Assembly: GCF_025717555.1 (NCBI RefSeq)
Contig: NZ_JAJIRP010000004.1
Span: forward strand, 311,426-375,425
Length of the DNA: 64,000 nucleotides
Source of the DNA: Paucibacter sp. B2R-40
GTDB lineage: Bacteria > Pseudomonadota > Gammaproteobacteria > Burkholderiales > Burkholderiaceae_C
Direction: 5' to 3'
Below, in pieces: positions 18,295 through 42,269 of the stretch. Position 1 is the stretch's first letter. Every line of letters starts with the position of its first letter. Below the pieces are notes generated by a model that saw only the letters and a list, made by a program, of their open reading frames with translations, made no database searches and was not told where the DNA came from. A program made the translations under genes and the position numbers.

Positions 18295-18342
18295 TTGGTA
18301 GGCCGTATAGGACTTGAACCTATGACCAAAGGATTATGAGTC
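18295..18342. repeat. attL: 48-bp copy of the tRNA 3' half
   Basis: Identical over 48 bp to 28320-28367. It covers the 3' CCA, acceptor strand, T arm, variable loop and anticodon region of the CAT tRNA, then diverges within the 5' side of the anticodon stem. The copy lacks the D arm and 5' acceptor strand, so it is not a functional tRNA. It marks the left end of the integrative element. Confidence 0.92.
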
Positions 18343-18458
18343 ATCACCCCTTGGTTTTGCGTGGTCAGTGGTGGACAAGCAAAAGAACCTAAACCATTGA
18401 TTTACCTAGCTATCCGCTCCAGTAGCGTCCTAGAATGTTCATCACCAACCACGCCAAG

Positions 18459-18522
18459 ACTGGCACCAGACTGGCACCAGCCCTAAAAAGCTGATTCAAG
18501 ACTGGCACCAGACCGGCACCAG
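18459..18522. repeat. arm-type integrase sites, left end
   Basis: ACTGGCACCAG occurs in tandem at 18459-18469 and 18470-18480 and again at 18501-18511, followed by the one-mismatch copy ACCGGCACCAG at 18512-18522. The same tandem pair occurs at the right end (28235-28256). They lie between attL and the integrase start, as expected for arm sites, and could also autoregulate int. Confidence 0.75.
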
Positions 18523-18538
18523 ATGAGCAGGGCAAGAG

Positions 18539-19909
18539 ATGGCGACCAAGGCAGAAAAGACACCGGGCGAGGCGATAGCCGACCTGAAAAAAGGCCAGTT
18601 CACCACGCTGGCGAAAGTCATCCCAAGCGGCGCATTGCAGGCCCGCAAGCTATCCACCGGCGCGGTGAAGCTGTATTGGCGCTACACATTCAATGGCGAG
18701 TCGGATCGGGTGGAAATCGGCCTGTATGACGGCAACATATCGCCCAAGATGCTGAAGCCCAAGGATGGCCGCTGGAATATTGCGGCGGCGATGACTGAAG
18801 CCTCACGGCTGGCCCTGGCGCACGATGGCGGTAAGGAGCAAGGCGGGCACGCTGGCCTAGTCAAAGCCAAGGCCGAAGCAGAGGCCAAAGCACTTGCCGA
18901 CGATGCCGCAGCGAAAGCCCAAGCCCAAGCCGAGATTGACCGGCGCAGCAAATACACGCTGGCCGAACTCCTTAAAGCCTATTGGCTAAACCTTGAGGCG
19001 CTTGGCCGCACTTCGCATAGGCAGGCGCGCACAACCCTCACAAAGCACGTTATCAATGCTTGGCCCGAGATAGCCGCCCTGCCCGCCTCAGAAGTTGCCA
19101 GCGAACAAGTTGCCGATATGTTGCGGCGATTGTTTGAGCATGGCAAAGGCCGCACAGCGAACATCACCCGGGCATATCTTGGCGCAGCGTATGAGACTGC
19201 ACGCCAAGCCAAAAGCGATCCGCTGATCCCGGTAGCCTTCAAGGGCTTCGAGGTCAAACACAATCCCGCAGCGGAAACCAAAGCCAACACCGACGCCAAC
19301 AAGGCCGACAAGAACCCGCTTTCAGGCGACGAGATGCGCGTCTACTGGAATTGCATCAAGGACATGGGCGGCATCAAAGGCGCGGCACTCAAACTGCACC
19401 TATTGACTGGCGGGCAACGAATCGAGCAATTGGTAAGGCTCAAGACTGCCGACATAGCCGCCGACACCATCACCATTTTCGACGGCAAGGGACGCCCAGG
19501 CAGACCCGCGCGGAGGCACACCCTACCGCTAACCGCTCAAGCCGCTGAAGCCATCAAGCTCCTAGACCTGTCGGGCGAATATGCGATCACCACCGAGGTA
19601 GGCGACAAGATCGGCAAAACCCACTTAGCCAACACCACCCTGAGCGCATGGGCCGCTGAAGCTGTGGGTGACAAGATCACCGGCTTTCAGGCCAAGCGAA
19701 TCCGCAGCGGCGTCGAAACAATCCTGGCCAGCGTCAAGATAAGCAAGGACACACGCGGAAGGCTTCAAAGCCACGGCGTCAGCGGAGTGCAAGACCGCCA
19801 CTACGACGGTTACGACTACCTGCCCGAGCTGCGCACGGCGCTAGAGGCGCTTGACAGGGAGTTGAACAGCACAAAAGCCGGGAACGTTGTAGCGATCAAG
19901 GCAGCATGA
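18539..19909 (+). CDS. int: tyrosine recombinase/integrase
   Basis: A 456-residue integrase. The N-terminal part (GALQARKLSTGAVKLYWRYT, RVEIGLYDG) resembles the DUF4102-type arm-binding domain, followed by an Ala/Lys-rich linker and a SAM-like core-binding domain (about residues 140-220). The catalytic region has LLTGGQRIEQLVRL (catalytic Arg), a C-terminal box with SHGVSGVQDRHYDGYDY (His and Tyr), and AKRIRSG in place of the usual H-x-x-R. That box is divergent, but the overall pattern fits. It would catalyse recombination between attP and the tRNA. The start follows CAGGGCAAGAG. Confidence 0.85.
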   Translation: MATKAEKTPGEAIADLKKGQFTTLAKVIPSGALQARKLSTGAVKLYWRYTFNGESDRVEIGLYDGNISPKMLKPKDGRWNIAAAMTEASRLALAHDGGKEQGGHAGLVKAKAEAEAKALADDAAAKAQAQAEIDRRSKYTLAELLKAYWLNLEALGRTSHRQARTTLTKHVINAWPEIAALPASEVASEQVADMLRRLFEHGKGRTANITRAYLGAAYETARQAKSDPLIPVAFKGFEVKHNPAAETKANTDANKADKNPLSGDEMRVYWNCIKDMGGIKGAALKLHLLTGGQRIEQLVRLKTADIAADTITIFDGKGRPGRPARRHTLPLTAQAAEAIKLLDLSGEYAITTEVGDKIGKTHLANTTLSAWAAEAVGDKITGFQAKRIRSGVETILASVKISKDTRGRLQSHGVSGVQDRHYDGYDYLPELRTALEALDRELNSTKAGNVVAIKAA

Positions 19910-20022
19910 CGACTTCTCGCTCAATCGTTGTGCGAATATTCCCATATTCACAACATGAAACCGGCGCCAAATACGCTACCGGATGGCGCATGTGCCGACT
20001 ACGAGCAGCCACTTGAACTAGG

Positions 20023-20237
20023 TGATGCTTCGCATCATGTTAGCGGAAAACCCGCTCATGGACAAACTAGGTCAAATTTCAGTCAGCGCGTCAATGGGAT
20101 AGATGCGCTAGCGGTAGTGCTTGGTTCCTATAACCATTTGTGCATAATGAAACTCATGGTGTCCTTAGATGTACATATGTCCCGAAGGACACCATAAAGG
20201 CGAAAGGCTGAAACCACGGTGTACCACCACCGCAGCC
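20023..20237 (+). ncRNA. hairpin-rich int-alpA intergenic region, candidate structured RNA
   Basis: Within the 496-bp spacer between int and alpA I find TGATGC-TTC-GCATCA (20023-20037), AGCGG-AAAAC-CCGCT (20042-20056), an 11-bp stem ATGGTGTCCTT / AAGGACACCAT (20156-20166, 20185-20195), and a stacked hairpin GGCTG...CGGTG / CACCG-CAGCC (20206-20237). A conserved RNA class named int-alpA is known from this genomic position in Proteobacteria. I cannot check the consensus, so assignment rests on position and structure. Confidence 0.5.
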
Positions 20238-20315
20238 CCAGCCCTTCAAGTCCGCCAAAGCAGACTGTTCAACTTAGCAGCGGAACAGTCCGAGTTTATA
20301 ACCGGTAAATCGATA

Positions 20316-20335
20316 GTTAAGCAAGCTTGCTAAAC
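20316..20335. promoter_or_regulatory. 20-bp palindrome upstream of alpA
   Basis: GTTAAGCAAGCTTGCTAAAC is a palindrome with one mismatched pair, centred about 80 bp before the AlpA-like start codon. It is a candidate operator for that regulator or for another element repressor. Confidence 0.5.
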
Positions 20336-20405
20336 AATTCGTGTAGCTCGGTGCTATCAACTCACATGGCGGAGATGTCCCACACCCTGTAAGAAGGACG
20401 ACTCC

Positions 20406-20606
20406 ATGACTGCCACAACCACAACTCCCGCCGTTTTGCGGATTCCTGCCGCCCACGGGTATCTGAGCATTTCCCGCTCCTATCTCTATCTATTGATCGA
20501 GCGGGGCGAACTGCCGCTCCTGAAGCTCGGGGGCCGCGCCAGCGGAATCATGCGCTCCGACCTGGACGCATGGCTCGATAAGCAACGCACTGCCGCACTG
20601 GCCTGA
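20406..20606 (+). CDS. AlpA-like helix-turn-helix regulator/excisionase
   Basis: A 66-residue single-domain winged helix-turn-helix protein: YLSISRSYLYLLIERGELPL is the MerR/AlpA-type helix pair, and GIMRSDLDAWL is the usual C-terminal end of this family. AlpA proteins regulate integrase and excision in P4-like elements. GAAGGACGACTCC precedes the ATG. First gene of a tightly packed run that continues to the replication protein. Confidence 0.85.
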   Translation: MTATTTTPAVLRIPAAHGYLSISRSYLYLLIERGELPLLKLGGRASGIMRSDLDAWLDKQRTAALA

Positions 20607-20618
20607 TCGGAGGCCACC

Positions 20619-20972
20619 ATGACGAGCAAAAAGCACGGCGCGAAGCCGGGACAAGTCACGCCTATTGCATCGGCTTTGAGCCTGCAACACACCCCGCCCG
20701 AGCGCATCGCGGCGCTGCACGCAATCCGCGACCGCCATCGCGGCGACAGTTCAGGCCCGCAATGCGCGCGGCTGCTTGAGGCTTTGCAAACGCTCGGCCA
20801 CTGCACCACATTTGAGGCTTCGCGCTTGCTTGATCTCTATCATCCGCCTGCCCGAAAGCTCAACCTTGTGCAGCAAGGCCACGAGATTCAAACGACATGG
20901 CGCACGGTGCAAACCGAGTCAGGCGAAAAACACCGAGTCGGCGTGTACTCGCTGGCAAGGGGCAACCAATGA
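20619..20972 (+). CDS. helix-turn-helix domain protein of the element
   Basis: A 117-residue protein. After a basic N-terminus, QCARLLEALQTLGHCTTFEA followed by SRLLDLYHPPARKLNLVQQG has the pattern of a winged helix that senses or binds DNA, and HRVGVYSL is a common ending for such small element proteins. It starts 12 bp after alpA. GATCGGAGGCCACC ahead of the ATG is a good ribosome site. Role unknown; perhaps a replication or regulation accessory. Confidence 0.7.
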   Translation: MTSKKHGAKPGQVTPIASALSLQHTPPERIAALHAIRDRHRGDSSGPQCARLLEALQTLGHCTTFEASRLLDLYHPPARKLNLVQQGHEIQTTWRTVQTESGEKHRVGVYSLARGNQ

Positions 20973-21166
20973 GCGCCGCAGAGACAGACGCCAGCGCCGA
21001 CCCCAAAGCCTTTGCCACGATCCGCGCCGAGCTGGCGCTGAAAGGCTACGGACTGAAAAAGCAGCCGGATGACACGCTGCTGATAACCCGGTGGGACTTG
21101 TGCCGTGAGGTCGAATCGCTCGACGCTGCGGCCCGATTCCTGAAGATGATCGGCGGTGCGCGATGA
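20969..21166 (+). CDS. small hypothetical element protein
   Basis: A 65-residue protein I do not recognise: ELALKGYGLKKQPDDTLLIT, then WDLCREVESLDAAARFLKMI. It has the size and feel of small phage or ICE proteins. Its ATG overlaps the upstream stop (ATGA), and its own stop overlaps the next start, so it is part of a translationally coupled chain. The start at 20969 is chosen for that overlap; an upstream in-frame codon lacks support. Confidence 0.65.
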   Translation: MSAAETDASADPKAFATIRAELALKGYGLKKQPDDTLLITRWDLCREVESLDAAARFLKMIGGAR

Positions 21167-21636
21167 ACGCACTATCAATCGAGGTTGTGGCGCAGATAGG
21201 CGAACACCACCGACTCGCACAAGCCAAATATTTCGCCGCAAAAGATCAATATGCTGAAGCGGTAGATCATGCGCGGCGCGCTGGCGCACTGCTACTGCAA
21301 GTGAAAGCTGATCTAGGTCACGGCAAGTTCTTGGCTTGGCTTGAACAGCATGTTGAATTCACGCCCCGAACAGCGCAGCGCTACATGAGCGCGGCAGCAC
21401 CGACACCCAAATGCGACAAGCTGACGCATTCGAGGAAGCCGCCCAAGGCTGGAAGCGCACGCGCCAAGCTCACTGCACAGATTGACCTTGTGCGGCATCG
21501 GGATGATGTGATTGCGCACGCAGCCTTTCTAGCCGCTGAACTGCCTATCGCGCACGAACTGCGGGCGACAGACCTACAGGCGCTAACAGGTCTGCGCGAC
21601 CGCATCAATGAAGTGTTGGGAGGTGGCGCACGATGA
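21163..21636 (+). CDS. DUF3102 domain protein
   Basis: A 157-residue protein. The first 80 residues (EVVAQIGEHHRLAQAKYFAA, GALLLQVKADLGHGKFLAWL, FTPRTAQRYMSAA) match the DUF3102 pattern of plasmid and phage proteins, thought to relate to replication or partition. The C-terminal half is less conserved. ATGA overlaps occur at both ends with its neighbours, so it is made together with the TOPRIM/DUF3987 protein. Confidence 0.75.
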   Translation: MNALSIEVVAQIGEHHRLAQAKYFAAKDQYAEAVDHARRAGALLLQVKADLGHGKFLAWLEQHVEFTPRTAQRYMSAAAPTPKCDKLTHSRKPPKAGSARAKLTAQIDLVRHRDDVIAHAAFLAAELPIAHELRATDLQALTGLRDRINEVLGGGAR

Positions 21637-24053
21637 ACACTGAGCAACTATTCCAATCCGCTATCGCCAATGCTGGCCTACCGCCACCGGACTCAATTGA
21701 GGCCGATGGCAAGCTGCACCGATTCAGCAGCAGCGGCAAACGTGGCGACGATTCCGGCTGGTATGTTCTGCATCAGGACGGCGTGCCGGGTGGCTCTTTC
21801 GGCTGCTGGCGTGCTGGACTTACTTCGACCTGGAGCGAAAAGCCCGACACGGCAATGACCCAGGCCGAACGCGAGGCCCAGCGCCAGCGCATCAAGCAAG
21901 CCCAGGCCCAGCGCGATGCTGAAAAAGCGGCAGCACAAGCGGCGGCAGCAATCGAGGCATCACACCGATGGGAGGCGGCAGAACCCGCCACAACGCACGG
22001 CTATCTGTCGACCAAGGGCATAGCCGCCTACGGCCTGCGGATTGATTCAGCGGGCGCTCTGCTGGTTCCTATGCGCGATGCTGCGGGCAAGCTGCAAAGC
22101 CTGCAAACCATCACCGAGGATGGCGACAAACGCTTTCTGAAGGGCGGCAAGGTGACCGGCTGCTATCACTCAATCGGCAAGCCAAACGGCGCTCTGATCG
22201 TCTGCGAGGGCTACGCGACCGGCGCAAGCATTCACGAGGCAACCGGCCAAGCTGTAGCGGTGACATTCAACGCGGGGAATCTGGAAGCGGTAGCGGTAGC
22301 ACTGCGGGCCAAGTACCCGGCGCTGAAGATCGTCATAGCGGCAGACGATGATTTTCAGACCGATGGAAACCCAGGCATCACCAAGGCCACCCAGGCGGCG
22401 CAAGCTGCGGGCGCTGTCCTGGCTATTCCTGACTTCGGAACAGGCCGACCCGACAAGGCGACCGACTTTAACGACCTGCACCAGATCGGCGGCGCTGCTT
22501 TGGTGGCGCGGTGTATCGAGGCGGCGACCAGCGCCAGCGCCGATCCAAGGCCAGAACAGACGGAAGGCACGGATTCAGACTGGCCCGAGGTTCAGCCGCT
22601 CATCTCCAAGCTAGATGCCGAGGACTACCCACTCGACGCCCTGCCCGATGTTGTGCGGCTGGCCGTGCTGGAAGTGGTGGGCTTTGTGAAGGCACCTGTG
22701 CCGCTGATAGCCGCCTCATCCCTGGCCGCGCTTTCTCTTGCGATCCAAGCTCATGCCGATGTGGAGCGGGCCGAAAAGCTCACCGGGCCGACCGGGCTTT
22801 TCATGCTGGCAATTGCTGACTCAGGCGAACGCAAGTCGACATGCGACGGATTCTTTACCCGAGCAATCCGCGACTACGAGGCCAAGGCCCAAGAGAACGC
22901 CAAGCCCGAGATTCAGGCATTCAAGACGGCGCACGAGGCATGGGACGCCCAGCGCAACGGGCTGAAGGAAAAGATCAAGTCGCTATCCAAGGAGGGCAAG
23001 CCCTGCAAGGCCCAAGTGCAAGAGCTTCACGACCTGGACGCAGACGAACCCAAGCCGCCACGAGTCCCCCGGCTGATCTACGGTGATGCCACACCCGAGG
23101 CGCTGACCTATGCCCTGGCGAAAGGCTGGCCGTCTGGTGGCGTGGTTAGCAGCGAGGCGGGCAGTGTGTTTGGCAGTCACGGCATGGGCAAGGAATCAGC
23201 CATGCGGAACTTGGCCGCGCTGAATCAGCTATGGGACGGCGCAACCCTGCCAGTAGAGCGCAGATCGTCGGAGAGCTTCACGGTACGCGGCGCACGGCTG
23301 ACGATGGCGCTACAGGTTCAGGAATCAACGCTGCGGGCATTCTTTGACAGTACCAAGGGGCTTGCACGCGGCACCGGCTTTCTAGCTCGCTTTCTGGTGT
23401 CCTGGCCTATGTCCACCCAAGGCACGCGCAACTTCACCGAAGCGCCGAAGAACTGGCCGAGCTTGGCCGCATTCAATGACCGGCTGACCAATCTACTGAA
23501 TCAGGCTGTGCCAATTGACGATGACGGCGCACTGAGCCCGGCAATGCTCACACTGTCACCGGACGCTAAACGCGCATGGGTTGCCTTTCACGATGCAATC
23601 GAGGCCGAGCTGTCGACCGGGCGGGACTTGCACGATGTGCGCGATGTTGCCAGCAAGACGGCAGACAACGCGGCGCGGCTGGCGGCACTGTTCCACACCT
23701 TCACCGGCAGGGCTGGCCCGATTGATCTTGATGCGATGGAATCAGCCGCACGCATAGCGGCATGGCATCTGCACGAGGCGCGGCGCTTTCTGGGTGAATT
23801 GGCAATGCCTGCGGAGTTGGCAAACCCGGCGCGGCTGGAATCCTGGCTGCTGGACTACTGCAAGCGGGAGGGCACCGACTCAGCGCCGACGCGGGAGATT
23901 CAGCGCTGCGGGCCGAACGGGTTACGAGACAAGGCAGTCATTGCCGACGCCATCAAGGAACTAACCGAGCTTGGCCGTGCGCGATTGGTGACGCATGGCA
24001 AGAAGAAGGCCGTGCAGATCAATCCGGCGCTGCTGGCCGAGGTGACGGTATGA
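21633..24053 (+). CDS. TOPRIM/DUF3987 primase-helicase-like replication protein
   Basis: An 806-residue two-part protein. The N-terminal third has a P4-primase-like region (WYVLHQDGVPGGSFGCWRAG) and a TOPRIM domain with Glu in ALIVCEGYATGASIHEATG and the acidic IAADDD. The C-terminal part, from about residue 330, is DUF3987 with the P-loop-like LAIADSGERKSTCDGFF. This architecture is typical of replication proteins of integrative elements and phage satellites. It ends 600 bp before an iteron-like array, a plausible origin for it to act on. ATGA overlaps with both neighbours. Confidence 0.85.
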   Translation: MNTEQLFQSAIANAGLPPPDSIEADGKLHRFSSSGKRGDDSGWYVLHQDGVPGGSFGCWRAGLTSTWSEKPDTAMTQAEREAQRQRIKQAQAQRDAEKAAAQAAAAIEASHRWEAAEPATTHGYLSTKGIAAYGLRIDSAGALLVPMRDAAGKLQSLQTITEDGDKRFLKGGKVTGCYHSIGKPNGALIVCEGYATGASIHEATGQAVAVTFNAGNLEAVAVALRAKYPALKIVIAADDDFQTDGNPGITKATQAAQAAGAVLAIPDFGTGRPDKATDFNDLHQIGGAALVARCIEAATSASADPRPEQTEGTDSDWPEVQPLISKLDAEDYPLDALPDVVRLAVLEVVGFVKAPVPLIAASSLAALSLAIQAHADVERAEKLTGPTGLFMLAIADSGERKSTCDGFFTRAIRDYEAKAQENAKPEIQAFKTAHEAWDAQRNGLKEKIKSLSKEGKPCKAQVQELHDLDADEPKPPRVPRLIYGDATPEALTYALAKGWPSGGVVSSEAGSVFGSHGMGKESAMRNLAALNQLWDGATLPVERRSSESFTVRGARLTMALQVQESTLRAFFDSTKGLARGTGFLARFLVSWPMSTQGTRNFTEAPKNWPSLAAFNDRLTNLLNQAVPIDDDGALSPAMLTLSPDAKRAWVAFHDAIEAELSTGRDLHDVRDVASKTADNAARLAALFHTFTGRAGPIDLDAMESAARIAAWHLHEARRFLGELAMPAELANPARLESWLLDYCKREGTDSAPTREIQRCGPNGLRDKAVIADAIKELTELGRARLVTHGKKKAVQINPALLAEVTV

Positions 24054-24559
24054 GCTTGGCCGCACTCATCAAGAAAGGCAGTCTGCGCGGGTTTGCGACA
24101 GCGACACCTGCGACTTCTGCGACAGATGGCCCTTGCATAACCCCAACTGTCGCAACTGTCGCAACTGTCGCTGTCGCAACTGCCCCAGACAGGGCGGCAA
24201 ATGATCCAGGCCACGCGCAACACTTGCAACAGGAACGCGCCACGAGCGCAACAAGCCAAGCCCCCTATTGGCCCAACACCCAGCACGCCAACGATTCAGA
24301 GCTGGACACGATGGAGGCCCGCTTGATGCTGTTCACCCGGCGCAGCATGGCCGACACCGAAGCCGATCTATTGGCCGACAAGCTATTGCAGGCCGACCGC
24401 GAGCAATCCGGCCAAGTAACTTGCCACCTGTGCCAGCACTTCAACCCACGGCGCAAGACCTGCGGCAATTTCCGGGCGGCGGGAGTCGGTCAAGAGATTG
24501 GCTCAGACTTGGCGGCGATGCTCCAGCAATGCCCAGGCTACACGGCGGCGCGGCAATGA
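24050..24559 (+). CDS. hypothetical element protein with Cys cluster
   Basis: A 169-residue protein. An N-terminal low-complexity Ala/Thr/Val part (encoded by tandem gtcgcaact repeats near 24150-24180) precedes a helical region (MEARLMLFTRRSMADTEADL). A C-terminal Cys set follows (CHLCQHFNPRRKTCGNF, then CPG), which could bind zinc. Proteins of this kind commonly follow DUF3987 genes in integrative elements. ATGA overlap with the replication gene. Function unknown. Confidence 0.7.
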   Translation: MSLAALIKKGSLRGFATATPATSATDGPCITPTVATVATVAVATAPDRAANDPGHAQHLQQERATSATSQAPYWPNTQHANDSELDTMEARLMLFTRRSMADTEADLLADKLLQADREQSGQVTCHLCQHFNPRRKTCGNFRAAGVGQEIGSDLAAMLQQCPGYTAARQ

Positions 24560-24633
24560 CGGCGGGCGCAACTCTGCGCTGGCTCAATGGCGAAGGCCAC
24601 AAGGCGAAAGCTAGACGGCTGACCGGTCAGTAA
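24556..24633 (+). CDS. possible 25-residue coupled peptide
   Basis: A tiny frame (MTAGATLRWLNGEGHKAKAR...) that begins with an ATGA overlap on the preceding gene, continuing the coupling used by every gene in this operon, and ends just before the operon terminator. The overlap and basic composition are the only support; it may be chance. Confidence 0.3.
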   Translation: MTAGATLRWLNGEGHKAKARRLTGQ

Positions 24634-24687
24634 AGTACAGCGATTTACTGAAGCCGCATCGGGCAACTGGTGCGGCTTCTTTGCTTT
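24628..24687 (+). terminator. terminator of the replication operon
   Basis: Two successive hairpins: CAGTAAA (24628-24634) / TTTACTG (24644-24650), then GAAGCCGCA (24650-24658) / TGCGGCTTC (24671-24679) followed by TTTGCTTT. The second is a good Rho-independent terminator. Confidence 0.8.
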
Positions 24688-24693
24688 CAATGA

Positions 24694-24917
24694 CCCCAAG
24701 GTTACCCCAAGGTTTTGCGGCCTGTACGGGTAGGTTACGGGTAGGGCCGGAGCCGATCACAGCAAGGTTTTAGCAAGGGTCTGAACACTAAGGTCACCAT
24801 AAGGTTTTGAGGTGGCGCAGTGAGGTCGCAGTGAGGGTCCGAGCGTCAAGGTCGCGTCAAGGGTCAAGGTTTGGGCAAGGGTCAGGCGCAAAGAACGGTA
24901 AGGTTTGGGTAAGGGTC
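24694..24917. repeat. iteron-like array: eight doublets of an 11-bp AAGG unit
   Basis: Sixteen units with core (A/T)AGGKTY or AGGG occur as eight pairs, each pair exactly 11 bp apart. Pairs start near 24694, 24726, 24761, 24788, 24818, 24843, 24866 and 24900. In most pairs both members share the left flank (CCCCAAGGTT twice, AGCAAGG twice, CAGTGAGG twice, GCGTCAAGG twice). One helical turn per unit suggests repeated protein binding on one face. It lies just after the replication operon, so a replication origin is likely. Confidence 0.7.
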
Positions 24918-25405
24918 TGACCGTTCGCCACCGTTTTAAAAACTACGGAAAACCGGCCACGGAGATTAATAATCTAGAAAATTGCGCTTTCGGATCAGTA
25001 CGCGCACGCACGCGCGAGGCCGTTAAATACGCGCAAATACGGCAATCGAGCCTTTTAAAAAGGCCGGAAAAGGCTGATCCTGAGCAGTACGAACGCACAC
25101 AAACAATTCGCACTTGTTGCGAAACTTGCGAAACCCTGAGCAGTACGCACGTGCGTACGCGCACATACGCGCGATGGCCGAAATAACTGTCGGAGTCTGT
25201 CGGGCACTTCGCTACACAGTACGCGCAGGCGCGCGCGATGGCGGAGGAAACCCCAGGCACGGCACCGGGTCTAGAGTAGAAAGAAATAGAACCGCCCCAG
25301 GCTGGCGCGGCGAATTTTGCACAGTGCCGGAAAGTGCCGCCAATTCCGCGCGCGCGAGGCTGCGTACTTGCGCACTTTGCGCACTTAGGTTTTAGCTGGC
25401 GCTGG
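24918..25405. other. non-coding origin-like segment with CAGTACG motifs
   Basis: Begins with an AT-rich stretch (about 24933-24990), then CAGTACG at 24996, 25085, 25141 and 25217, the longer CCTGAGCAGTACG at 25079 and 25135, and a perfect 14-bp palindrome TACGCACGTGCGTA (25144-25157). Hairpins include AGCCTTTT/AAAAGGCT (25049-25075) and TTCGCA/TGCGAA (25107-25123). No credible gene. The combination of iterons, AT-rich stretch and palindromes resembles a replication origin. Confidence 0.5.
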
Positions 25406-25890
25406 TTACCGGCTCACTTTTGAGCTGGCCGAGTGAGCTAGGAGGAATTGAACCCTCCTATAACGGCGCTGCAATTCTGCACATAGTTGCCCCCAATCTT
25501 GCCCCCATGCTGAATAGGCGACTTGGCAAAACACTTTGCAATTTGCCGGAGAGGTTCTGATTACCGCCTCACTTTTGAGGTGGCCGACCGTCGGCGCAAA
25601 TCTGCGCCAGCGCCATGCCCAACTGTGGCAAACTGATCGTGTCGCTGCACATCAGCGATGCGGGCTTGGTCGCTCGGTTTCATCAGGCGCAGCAGCCGCG
25701 CCACCTTTCGGGGGATAGCGGCTTTTTCACGTTCGCGTGATGCTGTGCGGCATGGCCCATTCAATGGCGGGCCGTGTAGGGACACCCGCGAGGGTGTGCC
25801 GGTACCTGATGCCGGTCGACCAACCCTGCACGGTCTGCCACCCTCTTGCTTGGTCGCTTGGGGTGACAGGTTCTAAACCTTGTTCATCAG
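25406..25890 (+). ncRNA. candidate structured RNA of about 480 nt
   Basis: Perfect or near-perfect hairpins follow one another: 25409-25428, 25439-25460, 25525-25547, 25564-25583, 25593-25608, 25642-25658, 25686-25702, 25727-25740 (TCACG-TTCG-CGTGA), 25751-25776, 25782-25797 (ACACCC-GCGA-GGGTGT, a GNRA loop) and 25799-25815. A possible pseudoknot is GACCAA 25818 with TTGGTC 25850, crossed by CACCC 25839 with GGGTG 25862. The hairpins at 25409 and 25564 lie in 27-bp repeats that differ only by a G-C to C-G swap of one stem pair. The loops favour the + strand, toward the next gene. No family recognised. Confidence 0.55.
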
Positions 25891-25898
25891 GAGCCGCC

Positions 25899-26438
25899 AT
25901 GGCTAACGCCCAGCAAATCAACATCAGCGCCGACACGGCCACCGAACCCGAGCAACCCCAGCAGCCCGAGCGCGAGCTGGTTGTGCAAGTAGTGCAAATT
26001 GACCACGGATGGAACCGAGCGGATTACCGTGGCACCCGCGCCCAACTCGAAGCAGAGGGCGTTATCCCCCCTGGCACGCATTGGCCCGTTGGTCAAACCT
26101 CTTGCAGTTGGGAGGCCGGCGAGTGCGTTTTCAGATTGACTCGCACACGCCCGGACGGCCTAAAGGGGCCAATGAGGCTTTGGATTCGCGGCGACTGGTG
26201 GAAATTGCAATGGGAACAAAAAGTGCACCCTGACCGTGGCACTCGCGCTGTCCTAAAGAAGAAGGCCGAGTTAGTCACGGAGGTGTACCGCCAATCGCCG
26301 GCCGGTCAGCGTGCATGGGACGCGCATTGGCGCCTGTACTGGCAAGCTCACCAGGACAAAGCTTTTCAATCCTTCAAAGCACTGATCCCCGGCCTGATTC
26401 CACCGAAGCGCGGCAGAAAGGCAGCGCCAGCCGCCTAG
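25899..26438 (+). CDS. hypothetical element protein
   Basis: A 179-residue soluble protein I do not recognise. After a Gln/Glu/Pro-rich start, LVVQVVQIDHGWNRADYRGT, then WPVGQTSCSWEAGECVFRLT and WIRGDWWKLQWEQ, form a Trp-rich core; the C-terminus is basic (PPKRGRKAAPAA). It sits at the 3' end of the hairpin-rich region, so its expression may be controlled by that RNA. The start at 25899 has CAGGAGCCGCC upstream; a longer open frame runs back into the hairpins and is not credible. Confidence 0.65.
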   Translation: MANAQQINISADTATEPEQPQQPERELVVQVVQIDHGWNRADYRGTRAQLEAEGVIPPGTHWPVGQTSCSWEAGECVFRLTRTRPDGLKGPMRLWIRGDWWKLQWEQKVHPDRGTRAVLKKKAELVTEVYRQSPAGQRAWDAHWRLYWQAHQDKAFQSFKALIPGLIPPKRGRKAAPAA

Positions 26439-26459
26439 ACCCCGAGCGACAACACCCAG

Positions 26460-26486
26460 GCCCGCCAATGTGCGGGCTTTGTTGTT
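26460..26486 (+). terminator. terminator after the 25899 gene
   Basis: GCCCGC-CAATGT-GCGGGC followed by TTTGTTGTTT, 22 bp after the stop codon of the upstream gene. Confidence 0.75.
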
Positions 26487-26527
26487 TCTGGCTGGCGCAG
26501 GTCACCGAGTGAACAGAGCCATCCGAA

Positions 26528-26553
26528 TGAAAAACCGGCTACTTGAGCCGGTT
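26528..26553 (-). terminator. terminator of the PEP-CTERM/DUF1566 gene
   Basis: AACCGGCT (26533-26540) / AGCCGGTT (26546-26553); on the minus strand the stem is followed by a T run (AAAAA on the plus strand before it). It lies just downstream of the minus-strand gene. Confidence 0.7.
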
Positions 26554-26577
26554 CAGTCGTGAGGCCCAAACCTGCGA

Positions 26578-27306
26578 TTACTGCTGTTTGGTGCGGCGAC
26601 GTGCAATGCCAGCAATGAGGCCAAGACCGGCGAGCATTAGGGCGTAGGTTTGGGGCTCGGGGACGGCGGCCACATCGCCGTCGCGTACTGCAACAGCCGC
26701 AAACTGTAGTTCTTTTACAGATGAGCTTTGCTCGCCGTACCCGAGCCAGAACCGAAATGCCCTTGAAGGGTTCGGTGCATCTTCATGGTCAATCCAATAC
26801 ATCGAGCCTGCGAACATGTTTTGGAAAGGACGATTGTCTGAGTTGCCTGGATAGTTCTCTGGGCTGAATTTCGAATGCCCAAGAGACACGTAGTAAAGGT
26901 GACCAATTTCGCTAGCGAGACCCCAACCAACGCCCGTGTTTGCATAACCTTGGTCCGATGTTCCATCCTGCGTGAACGCATAGTTAAAACTCACACCGTT
27001 TACTGGTGTCATTTTGGGCAGTCGCCAATCGCTGTAGCCGCCAATGGAGAGATTTTCTGCCCAAGTCTTTGCGGACAACCAACTCATGCCACCGCTGCCA
27101 TTGGCACCGGCATAGCCAGTCGACTTGGCATAGTTCCAATCCTTCAACCATGTAACGTTCAAGGTTGAGTCAAAGTAAGCGTCTGTTACTCCGTCTTGGT
27201 CTATATCACGCGCTTGCAGCGTGGTTTCCCAAGTGCCTTTTGCCTGGCCGGACACGGCGAACGAAGCCAAAGCTATGGCCACGAGGCCAGCCAATCGAAT
27301 TTTCAT
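26578..27306 (-). CDS. PEP-CTERM protein with DUF1566 domain, element cargo
   Basis: A 242-residue exported protein. It has a signal peptide (MKIRLAGLVAIALASFAVSG) and a DUF1566-type region (LNVTWLKDWNYAKSTG, then GGYSDWRLPKMTP, the YSDWRLP signature). The C-terminal PEP-CTERM signal is VPEPQTYALMLAGLGLIAG followed by an Arg cluster. It should be anchored or released at the cell surface by a host exosortase. It is the only clear cargo gene of the element and runs opposite to the rest. An ATG three codons upstream is possible, but its AGGG is too close. Confidence 0.85.
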   Translation of the reverse strand: MKIRLAGLVAIALASFAVSGQAKGTWETTLQARDIDQDGVTDAYFDSTLNVTWLKDWNYAKSTGYAGANGSGGMSWLSAKTWAENLSIGGYSDWRLPKMTPVNGVSFNYAFTQDGTSDQGYANTGVGWGLASEIGHLYYVSLGHSKFSPENYPGNSDNRPFQNMFAGSMYWIDHEDAPNPSRAFRFWLGYGEQSSSVKELQFAAVAVRDGDVAAVPEPQTYALMLAGLGLIAGIARRRTKQQ

Positions 27307-27507
27307 TGTTCTCATCCCTGAAGCTATGGGGTGGCCTGATTTGGCCCCTGCGCATAGTACGTTGCAGGATTGCGCTCAGTGTCGGATTCACGGGACTGCC
27401 CCCCGTGGATGGATGGGGTCTACCCCCAAGAGAGGGACGCGAAAAGCCCGAGAGCGCAGAGCCTGCAAGATCCGCAAGCAGGTGAGTAAAGCCAAGTAGC
27501 TCACCCC

Positions 27508-27753
27508 ATGAGCGACCGACCGGCGATCATTCAGAACATGAAAACAAATGAGTTTTGGTTCTGGACGATGCGCAGCGAAACCACGGGGAAGGTGCGGCGC
27601 TCACCGTGTCGATTTACCGACGATGAAGCACTGAGCCTAGACCCTGAAGCGGTGCGGGTTCCTGGCACATGCGAGGTAATCGACTGCCCTACTAGCCCGG
27701 ACGAATACGAGGCCATGCTGCCATCTTCGATATTCAAGAACTGCAAGAGCTAA
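27508..27753 (+). CDS. small hypothetical protein
   Basis: Up to 81 residues; the core FWFWTMRSETTGKVRRSPCR followed by FTDDEALSLDPEAVRVPGTC resembles a small family common in Burkholderiales (a short Trp/Arg-rich beta unit, then a tDxxA motif). No membrane or export signal. Starts at 27508 or 27538 are both possible, neither with a good ribosome site. Function unknown. Confidence 0.55.
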   Translation: MSDRPAIIQNMKTNEFWFWTMRSETTGKVRRSPCRFTDDEALSLDPEAVRVPGTCEVIDCPTSPDEYEAMLPSSIFKNCKS

Positions 27754-28234
27754 CAAGCCCTCACGCGCGCGCGCATTTTGTTGTTGGCGCTGGTGGCTGC
27801 GAACTTTGCAAACCTTGACCCTAACCGGCCATCGCCTAAGCTTTACCGGGGCAGGCTTTCAGCAGCCGGGAAGATCAACCGAGCGCGCTGGCCACGGCGA
27901 CTCCTGCGAGGGAGACAAGGGTGATGGCCTGCCCCCTTGCCTCTCGGCTTCGCTTTTTCCTTGCTTTTCTGTGCTGTTGCCATTTCATGCCCCGATGGGA
28001 GCGCAAGGCCAAGCGAATTAAAGACTTGACGGTAAATTCCCGCAATGGGCCAAAGTGAGAATTCCTCACTTCGCAAATCCCTGACATTCCGGGCAATTGA
28101 TCCCCGAGGCAACCAGCGCCAGCCCGGCAGCTTTGAATTAAAGGAATGCAAGTAAAGGATTAGGTCTGACCGATCCGGCGCAGTCTTTCAGCGAGGGCGC
28201 AACAGCAACCAAAAACGGGGTCAATCCGGCAAAT
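27754..28234. other. gene-free right end of the element
   Basis: No convincing gene. A minus-strand frame at 27843-28151 is Arg/Pro-rich and lacks a ribosome site. A dyad AAGTGAG-AATTC-CTCACTT lies at 28053-28071. The arm-type sites and attR follow. Confidence 0.4.
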
Positions 28235-28256
28235 ACTGGCACCAGACTGGCACCAG
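28235..28256. repeat. arm-type integrase sites, right end
   Basis: Two tandem perfect copies of ACTGGCACCAG, identical to those beside the integrase at the left end. Presence at both ends supports a role as integrase or excisionase binding sites. Confidence 0.75.
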
Positions 28257-28267
28257 CGCCCGGAATG

Positions 28268-28303
28268 AAAAAAGCACTCAGAGCCGATTAGCGCCAAGTG
28301 CTT
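28268..28303 (-). terminator. element-supplied terminator for the CAT tRNA
   Basis: AAGCACT (28272-28278) / AGTGCTT (28297-28303); on the minus strand the stem runs straight into TTTTTT. It sits 17 bp from the tRNA 3' end, inside the element, and takes the place of the host terminator displaced to about 18,258. Confidence 0.75.
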
Positions 28304-28319
28304 GATTTACATACGTTTT

Positions 28320-28367
28320 TTGGTAGGCCGTATAGGACTTGAACCTATGACCAAAGGATTATGAGTC
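28320..28367. repeat. attR: tRNA 3' half shared with attL
   Basis: The 48-bp sequence identical to 18295-18342. Here it joins the native 5' half, so the tRNA gene is kept intact. Confidence 0.92.
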
Positions 28368-28397
28368 CTCTGCTCTAACCAACTGAGCTAACGGCCC
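28321..28397 (-). tRNA. tRNA with CAT anticodon (Met elongator or Ile2)
   Basis: A complete 77-nt cloverleaf including encoded CCA: acceptor GGGCCGT/ACGGCCT (first pair G-U), D arm with AGTTGGTTA, anticodon loop CTCATAA, T arm ATAGG-TTCAAGT-CCTAT. CAT may be elongator Met or, after lysidine modification, Ile for AUA. The TTTGGTC after the anticodon stem recalls Ile2 tRNAs. It is the integration target of the adjacent element, which rebuilds the 3' half. Confidence 0.93.
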
Positions 28398-41471: not shown

Positions 41472-41953
41472 TGAAGTTTGCGCCGACACTGCTTTTGACA
41501 GTCGTGATCACGGCTTATGTCGGAGCAAGCTTGGCCCAAACAAAGCCTCGAACCATACCCATCTACCGTTGCGGCCCAGATGGCCGCGATCTGCGCGACT
41601 CCCCTTGCCCAAGCCAACAGCCGGCGAGCGCGTCACCGCTGGTATTTGACCAGCCCAGTGCCGGTCAAGCCCAGGCCAGCAAGGACAATGCGATAGCCGA
41701 CGCCAAGCGCGCCAATGAGCTGGAACGAGACAGGCTGAAGAAAGAGGCCGAGGCCGGTCGGCGCAATAGCAAGGTCGTCGGCATAGACGGGCTCAAGCCC
41801 ATCGGACCAGCGCCGGTGGCAGCAAGTGCAGGCAAGGCACACGCGCCAGATTCGGTCAAAGCACCGAAGGCGCCCAAGCAGCCCAAGCCCCCCAAAGCTC
41901 CCAAAACGCCGGCAAGTCCAAAGCCAGCCAAGACTGCTGCGCAAGCCGGTTAG
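41471..41953 (+). CDS. exported Pro/Lys/Ala-rich hypothetical protein
   Basis: A 160-residue protein with a signal peptide (TLLLTVVITAYVGASLAQ), a short Cys-containing motif IYRCGPDGRDLRDSPCPS of the DUF4124-like kind, a charged helix (ANELERDRLKKEAEAGRR) and a Pro/Lys/Ala-rich tail. Probably periplasmic. It is coupled to pth, an association seen in related bacteria; function unknown. The cobalamin riboswitch starts just after it. Confidence 0.7.
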   Translation: MKFAPTLLLTVVITAYVGASLAQTKPRTIPIYRCGPDGRDLRDSPCPSQQPASASPLVFDQPSAGQAQASKDNAIADAKRANELERDRLKKEAEAGRRNSKVVGIDGLKPIGPAPVAASAGKAHAPDSVKAPKAPKQPKPPKAPKTPASPKPAKTAAQAG

Positions 41954-41963
41954 AATCCTGCGC

Positions 41964-42182
41964 TGTTGGTGCTCGTGCAGAACCTCAAATCTGCACAGTT
42001 AAACGGGAATCAGAACGGCAAGCTCCCACGGAGCAAGCCCAAACTGAGCTGTCCCCGCAACGGTAAGTGGACGAAACGCATCCGCGTTTCAAGACCTGTC
42101 ATTACTCCACTGGTGCTTTTGCACTGGGAAGGACACAGGCCTCGTTCCACCAGCCCGGATACCGGCCAACAACGTGGAGAGC
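41964..42182 (+). promoter_or_regulatory. cobalamin (B12) riboswitch
   Basis: Classic AdoCbl riboswitch: the early TTAAACGGGAATC, the core GAGCTGTCCCCGCAACGGTA followed by AGTGG, then GGGAAGGACACAGG and the B12 box AGCCCGGATACCGGCC (about 42152-42167). It precedes btuB by about 90 bp and should shut down the B12 uptake and synthesis genes when adenosylcobalamin is plentiful. A short GACC-T7-GGTC element follows as part of the possible expression platform. Confidence 0.95.
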
Positions 42183-42269
42183 CGCGACCTTTTTTTGGTC
42201 AAGGCATTCCGTTCCACAGGTAATCAGCGGGTGAGCTGATGCCTGGTTGTTTTGTTTGGCCTATCCCTG

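Follow-up and report, generated by a model that had tools for sequence, protein, structure and literature searches.

In satellite phage P4, a small immunity RNA, the CI RNA, acts by termination on the replication operon. The C4 antisense RNA is the immunity RNA of phages P1 and P7. In P1, it works within the operon c4-icd-ant and is described as blocking translation towards the antirepressor (PMC8198154, PMC12197685). C4 and c4-a1b1 are among the motifs listed by Weinberg et al. (PMC2864571), and C4 is reported from many Proteobacteria, the Burkholderiales included, with C4-like RNAs of Acinetobacter described as having RNase P-type 5' ends as known from P1 and P7 (PMC5320573). In Salmonella, IsrK is reported to raise the translation of anrP more than 100-fold when acting in trans (PMC4825925).

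The window analysed here is the whole stretch of 64,000 nucleotides from Paucibacter sp. B2R-40, in which an earlier note, made from the sequence, had described the region 25406-25890 as one large structured RNA belonging to no known family. The 3' part of this region, at about 25628-25898, is very probably a C4 antisense-RNA module aimed at its own two target sites, as judged from the sequence; the RNA family is already known and the C4-type module adds a member to it. An apparently unknown large RNA can thus be named and taken off the list of unknowns. The module is like C4 of P1 and P7 in its RNA fold, its a' and b' loops and its double targets a1/b1 and a2/b2, in a second target that covers the ribosome-binding site of the gene downstream, and in a specificity change of a few bases between relatives. 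It is unlike them in the next gene, here termed orfX, whose likeness to icd is one of position, in that no antirepressor was recognised after orfX in the window, where a P1-type c4-icd-ant operon has one downstream, and in its carrier, which is a tRNA-integrated element of approximately 10 kb with a primase-helicase and not a P1-like phage. The Group 1 C4-like sRNAs of Acinetobacter baumannii are similar in the C4 fold and a variable a' loop; the sections of the source that deal with them report no matching a1b1/a2b2 targets (PMC5320573), whereas such targets are present and matching in the window. The succession of a promoter, a short terminated leader and, on read-through, a structured region with its operon is also seen in isrK - orf45 - anrP of Salmonella Gifsy-1 (RF01394). 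However, the window falls below the isrK cut-off and no anrP-like gene was recognised in it, and the leader RNA is reported to activate the Gifsy operon (PMC4825925), unlike the repression proposed below.

The C4 RNA, its leader and its target sites

The Rfam covariance-model scan identified C4 (RF01695) at 25760-25845 on the plus strand, with a score of 68.9 bits against a cut-off of 45, so that the absence of any known RNA family was not borne out; an unknown family for 25628-25845 is ruled out by this match. No other Rfam family reached its curated cut-off in the region beyond C4. The stems P1, P2 and P3 are common to the C4 folds of the 31 loci compared (see below), and two-sided compensated changes were observed at 16 of the 25 consensus pairs. 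A structured and selected RNA region within a compact mobile element, as had been claimed, is upheld, but not a single large RNA of a new kind, the 3' part being C4. The GCGA loop closed by C-G, rightly pointed out earlier, lies at 25788-25791 and is the loop of P2. The sequence CACG-TTCG-CGTG, described as a hairpin with a TTCG loop, is present at 25728-25739, but the predicted fold does not contain it as a separate hairpin, and in the Roseateles MAG contig L002 its loop is TTCC. The predicted fold of 25637-25898 has a z-score of -4.68 on the plus strand and -3.90 on the minus strand, with none of 200 shuffles as good in either case.

What had been taken for a possible pseudoknot is better understood as antisense complementarity between the single strand a' of C4 (CGACCAA, 25817-25823) and the target a2 (TTGGTCG, 25850-25856), which is repeated at the target a1 (TTGGTCG, 25666-25672). 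The loop b' of C4 (CCTGATG, 25805-25811) has exact complements in b1 (CATCAGG, 25681-25687) and b2 (CATCAGG, 25885-25891), and the latter overlaps the Shine-Dalgarno sequence AGGAG (25889-25893). All these elements are on the plus strand, and both loops are thus complementary by exact 7-mers to their targets, one of which overlaps the ribosome site used by the downstream gene. Much of the structure claimed earlier is complementarity of C4 to two target sites, and C4 and its four target sites presumably lie on one transcript. A spaced pattern, TTGGTCGC-N(4-34)-CATCAGG, matched the host genome only at the a1/b1 and a2/b2 places (2 forward, 0 reverse; 1 match for the reversed-pattern control), and no second target elsewhere in this genome was found by it. 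As only one C4 was found in the host genome, this speaks against a wider host role, without excluding one. The same pattern matches 138 of the 299 genomes of the host's family, with the reversed control at a similar rate. C4 itself was found in 38 of the 299 family genomes with the host counted, 37 of them above the cut-off, and the C4 matches listed in the family genomes number 68, of which 67 are outside the host. One family genome of 2.7 Mb (G038) carries 12 C4 matches, including one that misses the cut-off.

A possible start of the C4 transcript is indicated by CAAACT, a -10-like hexamer at 25629-25634 (+) that is aligned with TACACT of other loci. On inspection by eye, such a hexamer (TACACT, TACAGT or similar) is present in most C4 loci aligned on a1, an alignment which placed 29 of the 31 loci, L027 and L030 being left out; a sigma-70 consensus scan gave no promoter for the module. 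Leader hairpins resembling c4-a1b1 (RF03163) were found at 25628-25680 (+), with a score of 32.5 bits that stays below the curated cut-off of 46.7 and does not assign them to that family. Further on, at 25694-25727 (+), comes a long-looped hairpin with a T run that resembles a terminator and could end a short leader RNA; the terminator scan, limited to loops of 3-8, does not include it. Over 25641-25728, the isrK model gives an alignment of 27.6 bits against a cut-off of 50, short of membership, and it aligns below the cut-off in L009, L002, L054 and L055 as well.

Complementarity of loops and targets among relatives

The sample of relatives comprised 31 loci, namely the window, L002 and 29 loci drawn from the 67 C4 matches listed for the other family genomes. 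Each locus was examined for an exact 7-mer complement of a' (taken by rule, and by hand for L036) or of b', the latter in 23 loci, since the P3 loop of the other 8 does not start with CC[TG]. An exact complement of a' is present upstream of C4 in 29 of 31 loci and downstream in 28, while the pairings of loci with different a' gave 3 of 840 upstream and 16 of 840 downstream (at most 2%). For b', exact complements were found upstream in 18 and downstream in 19 of the 23 loci, whereas pairings between different loci gave 3 and 2 of 494, respectively, and the best of 2000 permutations reached 11/31 for a' and 6/23 for b'. Of the 23 loci, 16 have an exact match at every one of the four sites; one or both a sites are inexact in L027, L030 and L040, and at least one b site is inexact in 6/23. 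With G-U allowed in a run of 7, the self-pairings of a' rise to 30/31 on each side and the non-self pairings to 105/848 and 157/848, while those of b' reach 509/928 and 430/928 and separate poorly from self; the clear result for b' is thus due to the stricter 7-mer test and not to the looser one. The 31 loci have 12 different a' and the 23 loci 18 different b'. In the loci inspected by eye for their layout, a1b1 is followed in turn by the hairpin, C4, a2b2 and the start codon. Outside the 31-locus count, and likewise by eye, the a sites of L055 match its a', and a2 of L054 is one base off the complement.

The closest comparison is provided by L002, which has 92% identity to the window over 889 nt, from 25617 to beyond orfX. 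Its a' is CTGCCAA with TTGGCAG at a1 and a2, against CGACCAA with TTGGTCG in the window, and its b' is CCTTGAC with GTCAAGG at b1 and b2, against CCTGATG with CATCAGG. Both loops and all four targets therefore differ between the two loci, each in a matching way, and P1 and P7 are described as differing in a similar manner (PMC5320573, PMC12197685). The covariation in L002 is of the sort that the earlier note sought, but it runs between an antisense RNA and its targets. This pair of loci constitutes an unusually clean natural experiment, in which the specificity code is readable from the sequence.

The genes that follow C4 begin with ATGGC[TA] as first codons in 23 of the 31 loci, and the first proteins, which were obtained from 30 of them, are otherwise widely different. 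In a mechanically picked sample of 60 ORFs lying after C4 in the 29 loci other than the window and L002, Pfam identified 2 Phage_pRha and 2 AntA domains, and 4 ORFs of the same sample match one PHROGs anti-repressor family. In L022 and L027, the first frame after the ribosome site of C4 has just 9 codons (MADTLSAKT) and is perhaps a leader peptide or a decayed gene.

Mode of control and the upstream repeats

From the C4 match, the architecture, the exact loop-target complementarity, its conservation in relatives and the switch in L002, all of which are read directly in the sequence, we infer that the module is transcribed, processed, repressive and a source of immunity. The transcript would start near 25640, and a short leader with the targets a1/b1 would be made first; its synthesis could halt at the hairpin that runs to 25727. 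Transcripts that read through would include C4, which would then be cut out, presumably by RNase P as in P1 and P7, to give an RNA of ~77 nt that represses in trans. In free C4, a' and b' would pair with a2 and b2, cover the Shine-Dalgarno sequence of orfX and block its translation. The binding of C4 to a1/b1 may also favour termination, or consume C4.

A block of translation, attenuation and activation of the IsrK type share the same pairs, and the sequence alone cannot therefore tell them apart. Activation, in which the leader (a1b1 RNA) would bind the C4 sequence in trans, free the ribosome site of orfX and switch the gene on, with the C4 sequence serving mainly as an inhibitory fold within the mRNA, is possible but on the unlikely side. 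It is favoured by an order of parts similar to that described for Salmonella isrK - orf45 - anrP (PMC4825925) and by the alignment of the isrK model over 25641-25728 and in four other loci, and is opposed by the scores, the window being below the isrK cut-off and C4 far above its own. Repression by C4 and activation by the leader may both operate. We regard as rather improbable a mainly transcriptional control by attenuation as in P4, in which the RNA would pair with a1/b1 on the nascent leader and transcription would stop before orfX. The location of a1/b1 right before a hairpin that, with its T run, resembles a terminator is consistent with it, as is the pairing of a1/b1, which is kept about as strictly as that of a2/b2; however, the b2 site over the Shine-Dalgarno sequence, which attenuation alone does not need, is also kept, and the terminator scan did not pick up the hairpin.

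If C4 blocks the translation of orfX as proposed, a resident element would keep its own orfX off and would silence the orfX of an incoming element of the same a'/b' code, while an incoming element with another code would escape silencing. Such immunity against elements of the same code would follow the precedent of P1 and P7. In the place of Icd in the c4-icd-ant operon of P1, orfX would probably act early after entry or on induction.

The compensatory base change that served as the main argument of the earlier note is located upstream of the likely C4 promoter and outside C4. The coordinates given earlier for the two 27-bp repeats, 25406-25432 and 25561-25587, are exact, and the copies are identical apart from 25412/25567 (G vs C) and 25425/25580 (C vs G). 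The sequence and the folds confirm that the two differing bases form a pair within an 8-bp hairpin whose loop is CTTT. The dyads, both on the plus strand, extend over 25402-25432 (copy 1) and 25557-25587 (copy 2, with the change of G-C to C-G). By arithmetic done after the fact, two random differences would fall on one stem pair with a chance of ~8/351 (2%), and the swapped pair would also stay paired with a chance of less than 1%. The change is thus real, but the repeat occurs otherwise only once, at 5496 in L002, with 4 mismatches in 27 and with G-C where the stems of the window have G-U. This copy is followed in L002 by a differing stretch and then by a block at 90% to 25429-25532. Over 25428-25534, the window and L002 differ at 5 pairs, of which 2 are kept and 3 broken; conserved pairing in homologues accordingly holds for C4 but is mixed for this block, and on this mixed result the upstream stretch was set aside as a conserved structured RNA.

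It is an evenly balanced proposition that the dyad repeats are DNA sites, either operators of the module promoter or part of a replication origin by the primase-helicase gene. They lie ~40-230 bp upstream of the possible -10 box of C4 and adjoin iteron-like repeats at 24690-25240, which come after the primase-helicase gene, and the c4-icd-ant operon of P1 is described as repressed by C1 (PMC8198154). The minus strand of 25402-25636 folds barely above chance (z = -1.76; 10 of 200 shuffles as good). On the other side, the swap of G-C to C-G and the change of G-U to G-C in L002 would be unusual for a fixed protein site, L002 has no copy 2, and no repressor gene was identified in the element. Alternatively, the hairpins of 25402-25590 might begin a longer plus-strand leader RNA of the same switch, transcribed from a second promoter upstream, for which the plus-strand fold of 25402-25636 (z = -2.82; 2/200 shuffles as good) and the retention of plus-strand pairing by the hairpin changes among the two window copies and L002 can be cited. 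With the minus strands at z = -3.90 in 25637-25898 and z = -1.76 in this stretch, folding alone does not choose the strand. The broken pairs of the block 25428-25534 in L002 and the presence of the stretch in only 1 of the 299 family genomes searched, the host itself, with none in the other 298, count against a longer leader, which is judged improbable, and the balance leans towards DNA.

Other explanations of the upstream stretch were discarded. A dispersed repeat is not indicated, as CTCACTTTTGAG occurs at these two places only in the host genome. The 6 pattern matches in viral contigs, none of them with C4 (E up to 0.01), were read as chance, the contigs having local alignments to the element of 39 and 26 bases only, and the 20-mer TTGCCCCCAATCTTGCCCCC, shared with one viral contig (L043), lies there inside a long ORF and also looks like chance. 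An attachment-site remnant of a tmRNA or tRNA at 25438-25460 amounts to a T-arm-like resemblance to the host tmRNA with 3 mismatches in 19.

The orfX family and the carrier element

No separate long gene fills 25406-25898, in agreement with the earlier note, and the region does end at the ribosome site of a gene without recognised function. This gene, orfX (25899-26438, +), which is presumed to be controlled by C4, encodes 179 aa from the ATG at 25899, is extendable in frame upstream to a GTG at 25737, through C4, and is followed by a terminator-like hairpin from the terminator scan at 26458-26489 (+). Searches of Pfam, PHROGs, NCBIfam, PADLOC and solved structures gave no match to orfX at the thresholds used; no homologue was found in the phage collection or the plasmids searched, and the module region has no DNA match in the phage collection. 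Homologues are present in 8 of the 299 family genomes (host counted), in L002 and in 5 viral contigs, and orfX is a member of an unnamed protein family. These amount to 15 loci, a split copy in one genome being counted once and both copies in another being included. C4 lies within the examined flank in only 5 of the 15 (window, L002, L009, L054 and L055), and orfX is therefore not dependent on C4; in L009, an ORF other than the orfX homologue comes first after C4. The gene that overlaps or adjoins the end of the homologue is Rha-ANT in L053 and L055 and Bro-N in L054. Homologues in viral contigs can thus precede antirepressors, and orfX can accordingly hold the place of P1 icd. In L002 (1152-1220) and L052 (5609-5685), both loci with orfX homologues, an int-alpA RNA scores above the cut-off; none was found in the element of the window at E up to 0.5.

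The carrier is an integrated element of ~10 kb (18295-28370), bounded by a 51-bp direct repeat of the 3' part of tRNA-Met. The left end (att, 18295-18345) is 98% identical to the right end (att, 28320-28370), which lies inside the tRNA-Met at 28321-28397. By domain matches, the element encodes an AlpA/HTH_17 protein (20406-20606) and a Toprim/DUF3987 primase-helicase (21633-24053), together with an HTH_39 protein and a DUF3102 protein, and its integrase has a PHROGs match of 2.8e-22 and a Pfam match below the cut-off. With an integrase at a tRNA, an AlpA-type regulator and a primase-helicase, it resembles a P4-type satellite without recognised helper-exploiting genes, as none for capsid sizing or polarity suppression was recognised among the element proteins scanned. 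The module is comparable to P4 CI in being a small immunity RNA of a small integrated element with a primase-helicase, an AlpA-type gene and an integrase. The CI RNA acts on the replication operon, unlike the situation in the window, where the module comes after the replication genes and has orfX alone behind it.

The repeat-rich DNA at 24690-25240, just past the primase-helicase region, contains two sets of short repeats, of the AAGGTT/CAAGGGTC type and of the CAGTACGCGCA type, and is a candidate replication origin. A 37-base inverted repeat (84%) with TTGCGACAG / CTGTCGCAA units is found at 24093-24179, inside the ORF 24050-24559. Direct repeats with ACTGGCACCAG lie near both ends of the element, at 18458-18523 and 28236-28257, and are probable integrase arm sites. 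Between orfX and the right end are a PEP-CTERM protein gene (26578-27315, -), apparently cargo, and four more ORFs of 90+ codons without a Pfam match.

In L002, the C4-orfX block is near an integrase and a match to a Mob_Pre relaxase, and the carriers thus differ between that locus and the primase-helicase element of the window, the block being common to different backbones. A module beside a plasmid-type relaxase suggests that RNA immunity of the phage type may serve beyond phages. We tentatively suggest, at somewhat less than an even chance, that C4 is a portable exclusion cassette which moves among unrelated mobile elements, both phages and others, with a combinatorial code of two loops and an exchangeable effector joined at the start codon, and which in the host lineage was recruited without the antirepressor, so that orfX would serve by itself as an effector in the entry or exclusion of elements. 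New in the present locus are a C4 module in a tRNA-Met-integrated element of ~10 kb before an unnamed gene family, and one without the antirepressor that follows the orfX homologues in three viral contigs. Neither the module in a non-phage element nor the orfX family was found in the open-access literature searched, which is weak evidence of absence. Elsewhere in the window, a Cobalamin riboswitch is present at 41950-42184 (+), with 79 bits.
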